A stretch of DNA of 64,000 bases from Methanobrevibacter sp. Its GTDB lineage: Archaea > Methanobacteriota > Methanobacteria > Methanobacteriales > Methanobacteriaceae. The notes beneath the pieces were generated by a model. The model did no database searches and was not told where the DNA came from. It was given only the letters and a program-made list of their open reading frames with translations. Made by a program: the position numbers and the translations under genes. Below, piece after piece: positions 23,648-26,438 of the stretch (position 1 is the first letter of the stretch; every line of letters begins with the position of its first letter). The stretch is taken from the NCBI RefSeq assembly GCF_017431965.1, contig NZ_JAFRKB010000039.1, positions 64,818 to 128,817 of the forward strand, written 5' to 3'.

Positions 23648-24295
23648 CTAGTAAATGACCATTATGCACATATAAGTGAATTCGCTTTCAGCAATTTCCT
23701 TTAAAGTAGACTCAACAATTCTCTCATCAGGGTAACTCAACCTTTCACAGACAACAACTTTCCTTTCTTCCTCAACGCCATTGTCTAGTAAAAATTGAGC
23801 CATGTCCTTCACTTTTCTTGAAGGAAGGGCTATTGTTGTTTTTCCATTGTTTATGACCGGCAGGATGTCTTCAATATTCTCCCTTCCGTGAAATGTCATC
23901 ACGTTAGCGTTGTCCCATTGTATTTGGGTTCTTGCAGCAGCCAGCTGAAGTGAACTGATTCCCGGAATGACTTCAATGTTTTGTTTGTCAAATCCTTTCT
24001 CGGCAGATATTCTCAAAACAGTATTCAATACTCCTGAAAATCCGGGGTCTCCTGTTGACAATATGGATACGGTATTTCCTTTAATTGCTAGTTCAACGCC
24101 TTCTTTGAGTTTATCCAATAACTCCTTGACATTAAAGGCAATCTTGTTGTTGACATCATCGAACAGTTCTATAGCTCTTGTACTTCCAACAGTGTAATCG
24201 CTATTTTTAACGGTATCGATTGCCTTTTTTGTTAAAAATTCACTGGATCCGGGACCTATTCCAACAATATAAATTTTACCAGTCATTTTAATCAT
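23648..24295 (-). CDS. cbiE: Cobalt-precorrin-7 (C5)-methyltransferase
   Basis: A tetrapyrrole methylase of cobamide (B12) synthesis, methylating C5 of cobalt-precorrin-7. Methanogens need the product for the corrinoid in the Mtr complex. The N-terminus has the family loop I-V-G-I-G-P-G, then L-S-T-G-D-P-G-F-S-G and V-I-P-G-I-S-S-L-Q-L. At 215 aa it is the length of stand-alone CbiE, without a fused CbiT. The start is ATG 24295, overlapping the end of the HxlR gene, or ATG 24286; neither has a strong site, so coupling is likely. No other cobalamin genes are nearby. Confidence 0.9.
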   Translation of the reverse strand: MIKMTGKIYIVGIGPGSSEFLTKKAIDTVKNSDYTVGSTRAIELFDDVNNKIAFNVKELLDKLKEGVELAIKGNTVSILSTGDPGFSGVLNTVLRISAEKGFDKQNIEVIPGISSLQLAAARTQIQWDNANVMTFHGRENIEDILPVINNGKTTIALPSRKVKDMAQFLLDNGVEEERKVVVCERLSYPDERIVESTLKEIAESEFTYMCIMVIY

Positions 24296-24671
24296 TAATC
24301 TCTAATTTTTCTTTAAATGCATTTTTCAATTCGTCACGAGTCTCATCGGAATAGCTATTGTCATTTTTATCATGCAATGTAAACATTGCAAGTTCATAGA
24401 CAATTCTATTCATTGATTTGCCGTAATCGGTTAAGTAATATTCAGTAGTAACTGGGGTGGTATTCAACACTTCTTTTCTAATTAAGCCATTTTCCTCTAA
24501 TTCTTTTAAACAGTTGGATAATACTTTATTGCTTAATTTAGGTTTATCTTCTTTAAATTCTTTAAAATGTTTTTTACCGAAAAATAAATCTCTGATGATT
24601 TGTATGCTCCATTTTTTATTTATCAAATTCAATGTTTTGTCGACGGGGCATGCAATATTTTTACTTTCCAT
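24288..24671 (-). CDS. HxlR-family transcriptional regulator
   Basis: A winged-helix regulator of 127 aa with the HxlR core: a cysteine near the N-terminus (C-P-V), K-W-S-I-Q-I-I-R-D-L, then L-S-N-K-V-L-S-N-C-L-K-E-L-E-E-N-G-L-I and a wing ending in Y-Y-L-T-D-Y-G. Such proteins often sense reactive electrophiles or redox state through that cysteine. It is divergent from the macro/SirTM genes and upstream of cbiE. An inverted repeat in the shared promoter region (24709-24724) is a natural candidate for its site. Confidence 0.88.
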   Translation of the reverse strand: MESKNIACPVDKTLNLINKKWSIQIIRDLFFGKKHFKEFKEDKPKLSNKVLSNCLKELEENGLIRKEVLNTTPVTTEYYLTDYGKSMNRIVYELAMFTLHDKNDNSYSDETRDELKNAFKEKLEIND

Positions 24672-24703: not shown

Positions 24704-24743
24704 TTTTAGTTACTTTCAAGTAACAAAGTTCCCTTTTAGTTAC
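24704..24743. promoter_or_regulatory. Candidate HxlR operator in the divergent promoter
   Basis: GTTACTTTCAAGTAAC at 24709-24724 is a 7+2+7 inverted repeat. TTTTAGTTAC occurs as a direct repeat at 24704-24713 and 24734-24743, 30 bases apart. The second copy lies just upstream of the TATA-like ATTTAAATAT (about 24751) of the macrodomain gene. On the other side, a TATATAT block near 24693 serves the HxlR gene. The layout fits a regulator controlling both directions. Confidence 0.65.
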
Positions 24744-24801
24744 AAAAATCATTTAAATATCTAAATTCTATTAATAATTAAAGATATATGGGGGGATTAA
24801 A

Positions 24802-25587
24802 ATAAAAGCACAAGAACAATTGGATTTTTTGATTGAGTATTTGATTGATGAACGTAATGAAAGAATAGATATTCCAAATAGTTTAAATGATAAAAAAACA
24901 TTATTTAGATCCCTGATGAATGTCAGACCTCCAAGAGAGGTGTCAAATGAATTTTTACAGGTTCAAGATGAATTTTTAACCAATGAAACTTTAAACAAAA
25001 AATTAACTTCAGTCGATGAAATTTATGAAGTAAAAGGAAAATTAGCTCTGTGGCAGGGTGATATTGTTACATTGAAAGTCGATGCTATTGTAAATGCAGC
25101 CAATTCAAAATTGCTTGGCTGTTTTATTCCAATGCATAATTGCATTGACAATATCATTCACTCTTCAGCAGGTATTCAGCTAAGGGAGGAATGCAATAAG
25201 ATAATGCAAACTCAGGGAAGGGATGAGGAAGTTGGAAAGGCAAAAATTACAAGTGCCTATAATTTGCCTTCCAAGTATGTAATCCATACTGTGGGTCCAT
25301 CAATCCCTCAGGGGTTTGAACCTTCAGGGGAGGATTGTGAAAAACTAGCGGGGTGTTATAGGTCTTGTTTGGAAATTGCTGATGCCAATGAACTTAAATC
25401 CATAGCATTTTGCAGTATTTCCACTGGTGTTTTTAATTTTCCTCAAGATATTGCCGCTAAAATCGCAATTAAAACGGTTGAAGAATATTTAAATGAAAAT
25501 GAGACCACATTAGAAAAGGTTATTTTCGATGTATTTTCAGACAGAAGCTATTTGATTTATAAAGATTTATTATTTGGTGATATGTAA
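24802..25587 (+). CDS. Zinc-binding macrodomain protein (Zn-Macro)
   Basis: A macrodomain of the class linked to SirTM, which removes ADP-ribose from proteins. After an alpha-helical N-terminus with S-L-M-N-V-R-P-P, residues from about 85 carry [18 protein letters not shown]. The zinc-site signature follows, [12 protein letters not shown]-x-I-H, then V-I-H-T-V-G-P and [16 protein letters not shown] at about 24790-24795 points to ATA 24802 as start, giving N-terminal K-A-Q-E-Q-L; the first canonical start is TTG 24820, 24 bases away. It is followed immediately by the SirTM gene, with a 1-base overlap. Confidence 0.9.
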
Positions 25588-26438
25588 TGGATAAGTTTGT
25601 TTTAAGATTAGATAAGGCTATCAATGAAATCAGGGATGCTGATTATATACTTATTGGGGCAGGAGCAGGTTTTTCCGCTGCGGCGGGAATTGAATATTCT
25701 GGTAAACGTTTCGATGATAACTTTCAGGATTTCATTAAGAAATATGGTGTTAAAGACATGTATTCTGCAACATTTTATCCATATGAAACCCAAGAGGAAA
25801 AATGGGCTCATTGGGCACGCCATGTTTATGTTAATAGGTATTCTGTTGGAAAAACAAAGTTATATGGGCAGTTGCTTGATTTAGTTAAAGATAAGGACTA
25901 TTTTGTCTTGACAACCAATGTCGAGCATCAATTCTGGATAAACGGCTTTGAAGATGAAAGAATTTTTGCAACTCAGGGGGATTATGGCATGATGCAGTGT
26001 GCAAAAGCCTGTCATGATAAATTGTATTCCAATGAGGAATTGGTTTTTAAAGCTATTGAAAGCACTGATGATTGCAAAATTCCAAGTGAATTAGTTCCTG
26101 TATGTCCAGTTTGTGGGGGCAATATGGAAATAAATGTCAGAAAGGATAATTTCTTTGTTGAAAATGAAAAATGGCATGAAATGGCTGAAAACTACTCCCG
26201 ATTTTTAGGTAAAATCAATGAAGAGGATAAGCTGGTGCTTTTGGAATTGGGGGTTGGCTTTAACACTCCAGTAATTATCAGGTATCCGTTTGAGCAAATG
26301 ACTTATAATAATCCTAATGTAAGTTTGATTAGATTAAACAGGAGTCATTCACAAGCAATTCCAGAAAATAAGGATAAGACAATTAGTTTTGATGAGGATT
26401 TATCTGAGATATTTGATTACTGGTGCGGGAGAATTTAA
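25587..26438 (+). CDS. SirTM-type sirtuin (protein ADP-ribosyltransferase candidate)
   Basis: A 283-residue sirtuin with the NAD-binding G-A-G-A-G-F-S-A-A-A-G-I at the N-terminus, L-T-T-N-V-E-H-Q-F for the usual T-Q-N-x-D motif, a zinc ribbon (C-A-K-A-C and V-C-P-V-C-G), and G-V-G-F-N-T-P. The catalytic histidine of ordinary sirtuins is replaced: the motif reads F-A-T-Q-G-D-Y. A Gln here is the hallmark of class M sirtuins, which ADP-ribosylate rather than deacetylate. It has a GGTGAT site and overlaps the macrodomain gene. Bacterial and fungal relatives modify a lipoylated GcvH-like carrier; none is encoded nearby. Confidence 0.9.
   Translation: MDKFVLRLDKAINEIRDADYILIGAGAGFSAAAGIEYSGKRFDDNFQDFIKKYGVKDMYSATFYPYETQEEKWAHWARHVYVNRYSVGKTKLYGQLLDLVKDKDYFVLTTNVEHQFWINGFEDERIFATQGDYGMMQCAKACHDKLYSNEELVFKAIESTDDCKIPSELVPVCPVCGGNMEINVRKDNFFVENEKWHEMAENYSRFLGKINEEDKLVLLELGVGFNTPVIIRYPFEQMTYNNPNVSLIRLNRSHSQAIPENKDKTISFDEDLSEIFDYWCGRI

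Follow-up and report, generated by a model that had tools for sequence, protein, structure and literature searches.

A class-M sirtuin and zinc-dependent macrodomain of a Methanobrevibacter genome lacking lipoyl-carrier genes: a candidate ADP-ribosylation switch in a proposed HxlR-associated redox regulon

The 64,000-nucleotide stretch of Methanobrevibacter sp. DNA analyzed here (henceforth the window) encodes a zinc-dependent macrodomain (Zn-Macro) and a class-M sirtuin (SirTM) with the active-site residues of their respective families, in a genome that contains no detectable lipoyl-carrier or lipoate ligase gene. The pair is accompanied by a conserved divergent regulator of the HxlR family, a conserved palindrome forming its proposed operator, and a conserved flavoprotein partner of the PPOX family (Table 1). 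Taken together, these features make it fairly likely that the pair is a reversible, non-lipoyl ADP-ribosylation switch within an HxlR-controlled redox or electrophile regulon, with a small thiol or flavin protein belonging to the same regulon as its probable acceptor. Functional statements made below rest on sequence, several of the relatives compared are represented by incomplete assemblies, and the genes of relatives are mechanically called ORFs.

The pair as such has been described before. A 2015 study had pointed out SirTM/Zn-Macro pairs that stand alone (PMC4518038), and MorMacro, from a "minimal operon" of Methanobrevibacter oralis, was described with crystal structures in 2024 (PMC11490716). 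The pair in the window is accordingly orthologous to an archaeal system already in the literature, and the novelty implied by an initial annotation of this DNA does not hold. The two systems share the gene pair, the genus, closely similar macrodomains with the same zinc loop and Dx3H motif, and an operon devoid of GcvH-L and LplA2. However, the M. oralis system was published as a pair only, whereas here a divergent HxlR gene, an operator, a co-regulated PPOX gene and a genome-wide absence of lipoyl genes are added. It is these surroundings that are new, and the regulator, operator and flavoprotein had been missed by the initial annotation. The better-characterized extended operon of Staphylococcus and Streptococcus comprises GcvH-L, LplA2, Zn-Macro, SirTM and OYE/LLM (PMC4518038). 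It resembles the present system in its combination of "writer" and "eraser", its association with a flavin oxidoreductase and its stress context, but differs in possessing a lipoyl carrier and ligase.

Table 1. Features of the Zn-Macro/SirTM locus, in window coordinates
Feature	Position	Strand	Basis or remark
Divergent HxlR-family regulator, N-terminal Cys8 (ACPVDKTL)	24288..24671	-	Profile match; overlaps cbiE start
Perfect palindrome GTTACTTTCAAGTAAC, proposed HxlR operator	24709..24724	.	Site search, conservation
Degenerate second palindrome copy GTTCCCTTTTAGTTAC, 19 nt on	24728..24743	.	Sequence
TATA-like element of putative Zn-Macro promoter, CATTTAAATA	24750..24759	+	Inferred from sequence
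Zn-dependent MacroD-type macrodomain (ADP-ribosyl hydrolase, "eraser")	24802..25587	+	Start ATA 24802 or TTG 24820
Zn loop C-F-I-P-M-H-N-C (CxxxxHxC)	25120..25143	+	Sequence; aligned with MorMacro/SauMacro
Catalytic Dx3H motif D-N-I-I-H	25147..25161	+	Sequence; motif per PMC11490716
Class-M sirtuin SirTM (ADP-ribosyltransferase, "writer")	25587..26438	+	Begins on last base of macrodomain stop codon
Gln130 codon in place of sirtuin catalytic His (FATQGDY)	25974..25976	+	Alignment

Sequence and structure of the gene pair

The two overlapping ORFs, which the initial annotation had taken for a macrodomain and a sirtuin, are real and correctly placed, and the family assignments are confirmed by matches in Pfam, NCBIfam and PDB for the macrodomain and in PDB for the sirtuin. 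The Zn-Macro ORF scores 127 bits against the Pfam Macro model and 360 bits against the NCBIfam model PRK04143 "protein-ADP-ribose hydrolase" (cut-off 272), and its top PDB match is MorMacro (8RSI/8RSJ/8RSK, E 1.5e-115), with 67% identity over 257 aa (257/261 residues aligned). The alignment with MorMacro recovers the N-terminal helical bundle in addition to the CxxxxHxC loop and the Dx3H motif; the zinc signature read from the DNA earlier stands as C-FIPM-H-N-C followed by D-NII-H, as in other Zn-Macros. The linkage to SirTM, with a 1-nt overlap at 25587, is likewise characteristic of the family, and the pair is kept in relatives.

The SirTM protein finds only class-M sirtuins in PDB, the top match being the Streptococcus pyogenes SirTM (SpySirTM; 5a3a-c, E 4e-56). 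None of the Pfam sirtuin models scores above threshold against this ORF, and class M is divergent. An AlphaFold2 model (pLDDT 91.8) bears out the assignment to SirTM, superposing on SpySirTM (5a3a) with a TM score of 0.93 and rmsd of 1.7, with ordinary sirtuins far behind at about 0.6. The catalytic HG is replaced by QG, and the substitution of His by Gln pointed out initially corresponds to Gln130. Along with Asn111 and Arg185, this residue is invariant across nine true archaeal SirTMs, and the three align with Asn118, Gln137 and Arg192, which are needed in SpySirTM (PMC4518038). Judged by sequence comparison, the similarities of both proteins are incompatible with chance.

The ORFs being right, the start proposed initially for the Zn-Macro gene, at 24802, is an ATA codon and not ATG. 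No ATG lies close to the 5' end; ATT 24796 and ATA 24802 follow a GGGGGG ribosome-binding run, and at the ATA position relatives carry ATG, or again ATA or ATT, with a non-ATG codon in 6 of the 10 relatives listed. The residues encoded upstream (..EQ-LDFL) are maintained while their third codon bases change synonymously, a pattern that favors the ATA or ATT start over TTG 24820. Hence, the Zn-Macro appears to initiate at a non-AUG isoleucine codon within 24796-24822. Such a start placed after a strong ribosome-binding site might possibly represent translational throttling of the eraser. The relatives with non-ATG starts are the Methanobrevibacter loci L002, L003, L004, L013, L017 and L023; the others have ATG.

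The HxlR regulator, the palindrome and the PPOX partner

An N-terminal cysteine, as found in the protein encoded divergently from the pair, is typical of redox-sensing HxlR proteins. This gene matches PF01638 and lies beside the conserved palindrome that it putatively binds; the nearest NCBIfam model is RrpB, with a score under its cut-off. Its 3' end overlaps the start of the cobamide gene cbiE (cobalt-precorrin-7 methyltransferase; 24288-24295), with which it may hence be co-transcribed, and this synteny is kept in many relatives.

The intergenic region common to HxlR and Zn-Macro carries the palindrome GTTACTTnnAAGTAAC, of which only two exact sites exist in the genome, the second being upstream of a PPOX-family flavoprotein gene. 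In relatives, the region upstream of PPOX contains tandem sites with the same spacing as the 24709/24728 pair. Across 139 genomes, exact sites number 14: seven occupy the HxlR/Zn-Macro intergenic region, four accompany a different HxlR gene and the peptide and radical SAM genes of the ACGX system (see below), one lies at ACGX genes without an adjacent HxlR, one at PPOX and one within an unrelated coding sequence. The palindrome at a catalase-like gene (L121) falls within the coding sequence, and was therefore not counted as an operator. Most SirTM-positive genomes have no exact palindrome, and degenerate versions are the rule: with up to 2 mismatches, it occurs upstream of 17 of the 21 HxlR genes located near the pair or PPOX, against 0.05 expected from shuffles. 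Of the 20 SirTM-positive Methanobrevibacter genomes, 18 have an HxlR gene no farther than about 2 kb from SirTM, compared to a background of about 4 HxlR genes per genome (about 1.8 per Mb). None was found near the Methanosphaera pairs.

The PPOX-family (PNPOx_N) gene, the only co-regulated partner found in this genome, encodes a protein of 133 aa and is situated 34 kb away. A MarR gene lies divergently beside it and may be what actually regulates PPOX, which would speak against HxlR control. In about a dozen relatives, the PPOX orthologue lies within the HxlR/Zn-Macro/SirTM cluster itself, in three arrangements, and about 15 of the genomes with both PPOX and SirTM have them within 6 kb of each other. 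SirTM is present in 31/37 PPOX-positive genomes versus 44/102 others (Fisher 1.4e-5), and the co-occurrence is also seen inside the genus (Fisher 0.003), shared ancestry being included in both values. In two genomes devoid of SirTM (G042 and G101), HxlR adjoins PPOX. An independent study reports both PPOX (COG5015) and HxlR (COG1733) from 9/10 Ca. M. intestini but 0/12 M. smithii genomes (PMC11366006), a distribution consistent with a single module. Downstream of the pair, Methanosphaera instead carries glutathione peroxidase and a flavodoxin-like gene. The complete array in six loci (L065-L069, L074) reads alpha/beta hydrolase, a 270-aa protein of unknown type, Zn-Macro, SirTM, glutathione peroxidase, flavodoxin-like gene and class II amidotransferase.

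Based on orthologues with solved structures and assays, SirTM would ADP-ribosylate an acceptor protein using NAD+, and the Zn-Macro would remove the ADP-ribose again, which together would constitute a reversible protein mono-ADP-ribosylation switch. The genomic context suggests that the divergent HxlR controls a redox or electrophile-stress regulon of which this switch is part. HxlR is predicted to bind GTTACTTnnAAGTAAC both in the region separating its own gene from the pair and, acting in trans, at the PPOX promoter, and to be subject to a presumptive inducer. As the probable acceptor, the same context suggests a small protein of the HxlR regulon with a redox-active thiol or flavin.

Bacterial loci and phylogeny

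SirTM loci with organism names number 80, 75 of them bacterial, and 71 bacterial loci were analyzed. HxlR is the commonest neighbor of the pair in these, being present in 27/71 loci at a density of 7.8 per 100 kb within 0-2 kb of SirTM versus 0.7 at 4-7 kb. PPOX genes (8) and fusions of PPOX with ferredoxin (11) were recovered only within 2 kb, where DUF1848 (13 loci), Rrf2, NmrA-like and quinone oxidoreductase genes are also concentrated. The data place the pair in a probable redox regulon under HxlR control in both archaea and bacteria. No neighbor was found at all loci, and a single universal operon partner was hence rejected. A protein of approximately 265 aa, for which Pfam and NCBIfam gave no match, recurs beside the pair in 10 bacterial loci (L126:3329-4204, L167:5235-6026 and similar).

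The nearest named relatives of the pair in the window are from Methanobrevibacter. In the SirTM tree, the Methanobrevibacter clade stands next to a bacterial clade with members from Sporomusa, Neobacillus and Bacteroidetes, and the starred branches force at least 4 label changes, which suggests that SirTM was acquired several separate times in archaea.

The ACGX system as a candidate source of the acceptor

In relatives, an HxlR gene and the palindrome GTTACTTnnAAGTAAC also mark the ACGX system, defined by the NCBIfam models TIGR04340 (radical SAM/SPASM) and TIGR04341 (Cys-rich ACGX-repeat peptide). Five of the bacterial SirTM loci hold a TIGR04340 gene (605 bits in L126, from Sporomusa silvacetica) together with a TIGR04341 peptide. 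To view the association from the other side, matches to TIGR04340 were sought in 391 Clostridia genomes regardless of SirTM; 16 exceeded the cut-off, and 15 remain when the genome at the center, which had been chosen by its SirTM, is left out. In 12 of these 15, a Zn-Macro gene in the same orientation lies about 0.6-3 kb downstream, in 11 of them along with SirTM. The tree places some of these genomes as close kin, which lowers the number of independent cases, but the cases are spread over several separate branches. The typical order begins with HxlR in the opposite orientation, followed by ACGX, radical SAM and a nitroreductase or quinone oxidoreductase, and then by PPOX-Fer4, in some cases DUF1848, Zn-Macro and SirTM. 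In Methanobacteriaceae, the ACGX cluster comprises HxlR, peptide, radical SAM, quinone oxidoreductase and PPOX-Fer4 at a locus separate from SirTM/Zn-Macro, and SirTM is present in 30/33 ACGX genomes of the family and 18/18 in the genus (counts that include shared ancestry).

The peptide adjoins nearly every ACGX gene examined, and its repeats are of the Cys-Gly-x(1-2)-Asp/Glu type. Given that Zn-Macros cleave Asp/Glu-linked and Cys-linked ADP-ribose (PMC11490716), it is a chemically plausible acceptor, and we infer that it is the best candidate in relatives having the ACGX system. The layout of the cluster also parallels the extended operon: each contains a small carrier, a carrier-modifying enzyme, a flavin or quinone oxidoreductase, a writer and an eraser. 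Tentatively, and with rather less than even confidence, the ACGX cluster may be viewed as a second "extended SirTM operon", in which a ribosomally synthesized Cys/Asp-rich repeat peptide and its radical SAM maturase would replace GcvH-L and the ligase, with SirTM and Zn-Macro reversibly ADP-ribosylating the peptide on Cys or Asp/Glu. HxlR-type regulation would join the two halves into a single response in the genus, and lineages without ACGX would use another protein of the regulon. Were the peptide the acceptor, a first function could be given to the ACGX system, and the range of reversible ADP-ribosylation would widen to include radical-SAM peptides; the linkage is frequent enough for direct testing. 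Open-licence papers yielded no report tying ACGX or HxlR to SirTM.

In relatives, the ACGX system has PPOX-type partners, the operator and an HxlR paralogue in common with the pair, but the present genome has no ACGX match itself at E<=1e-40 (assembly 95% complete). Furthermore, among Clostridia chosen by their SirTM, ACGX is no commoner than in the class at large (3/46 versus 16/391). ACGX was therefore rejected as the general SirTM target.

Its absence from most SirTM genomes, along with the variety of the bacterial neighbors, none of which is universal (PPOX-Fer4, quinone oxidoreductase, NmrA-like, DUF1848, Rrf2, radical SAM), would also fit a different arrangement, in which the pair is one effector of the HxlR stress response, ACGX and PPOX are co-regulated non-substrates and the acceptor is a housekeeping protein. 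We consider this unlikely, though by no means negligibly so: the placement of Zn-Macro just downstream in 12/15 ACGX-chosen Clostridia is tighter than loose regulon co-membership predicts, and in the characterized extended operon the substrate is an operon-encoded small carrier (PMC4518038).

Lipoyl carriers and deacylation

Lipoylated GcvH-L is the only proven SirTM substrate (PMC4518038, PMC11490716), and the initial annotation had left room for a carrier encoded elsewhere, having noted the absence of GcvH-L and LplA2 from the neighborhood of the pair. That absence extends genome-wide: profile searches of the assembly (2.05 Mb, 95% complete) returned zero matches for GcvH (PF01597) and for lipoate ligase/transferase (PF21948), and for this reason the pair is not a lipoyl-carrier switch here. 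Weak matches occur among the 139 Methanobacteriaceae genomes. The GcvH match examined is a 576-aa ORF ending in the biotin motif AMKM, i.e. pyruvate carboxylase subunit B (PycB), and the LplA match is a 310-aa biotin-ligase ORF (BirA) adjoining biotin carboxylase; almost all remaining matches have ORF lengths resembling these examples. On the basis of this assembly and of the matches examined in relatives, a GcvH-type carrier elsewhere is rejected for this genome and for Methanobacteriaceae. Biochemically, MorMacro strips Glu/Asp-ADP-ribose from automodified PARP1 but not ADP-ribose from S. pyogenes GcvH-L, and archaeal Zn-Macros, unlike those of the extended operon, do not have the GcvH-L-binding positive patch (PMC11490716). 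A lipoyl system supplied from another gene is thus highly improbable. The targets of other SirTM/Zn-Macro systems were called unknown in the same study (PMC11490716), and the exclusion of lipoyl carriers in these methanogens narrows the question, as do the association with an HxlR regulon and the link to a specific peptide family.

An ordinary NAD-dependent deacylase, as might be proposed from the sirtuin fold and a weak NCBIfam deacylase match, is scarcely credible in view of Gln130 in place of the catalytic His, and of the best match in both sequence and fold being SpySirTM, which has no deacylase activity and loses its activity on Gln137His replacement (PMC4518038).

Variants of the pair in other archaea

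Directly after SirTM, members of a Methanobrevibacter olleyae-type group encode a degenerate second SirTM paralogue (L061:8603-9466, L062:6662-7522, L071:9009-9911), with Gln130 changed to Asn, Arg185 to Thr and the GAGAG loop lost, which is probably a pseudoenzyme. In other genera of Methanobacteriaceae (L076, L078, L070), a frameshift or stop splits SirTM and/or Zn-Macro, which points either to a decaying pair or to faulty assemblies. Highly divergent archaeal SirTMs (about 36% identity), with a PPOX gene nearby, are encoded at L063:8041-8904, L064:6801-7664 and L048:7664-8494, the first two with Zn-Macro and HxlR also close by. These are seemingly separate acquisitions in which the usual writer was replaced.
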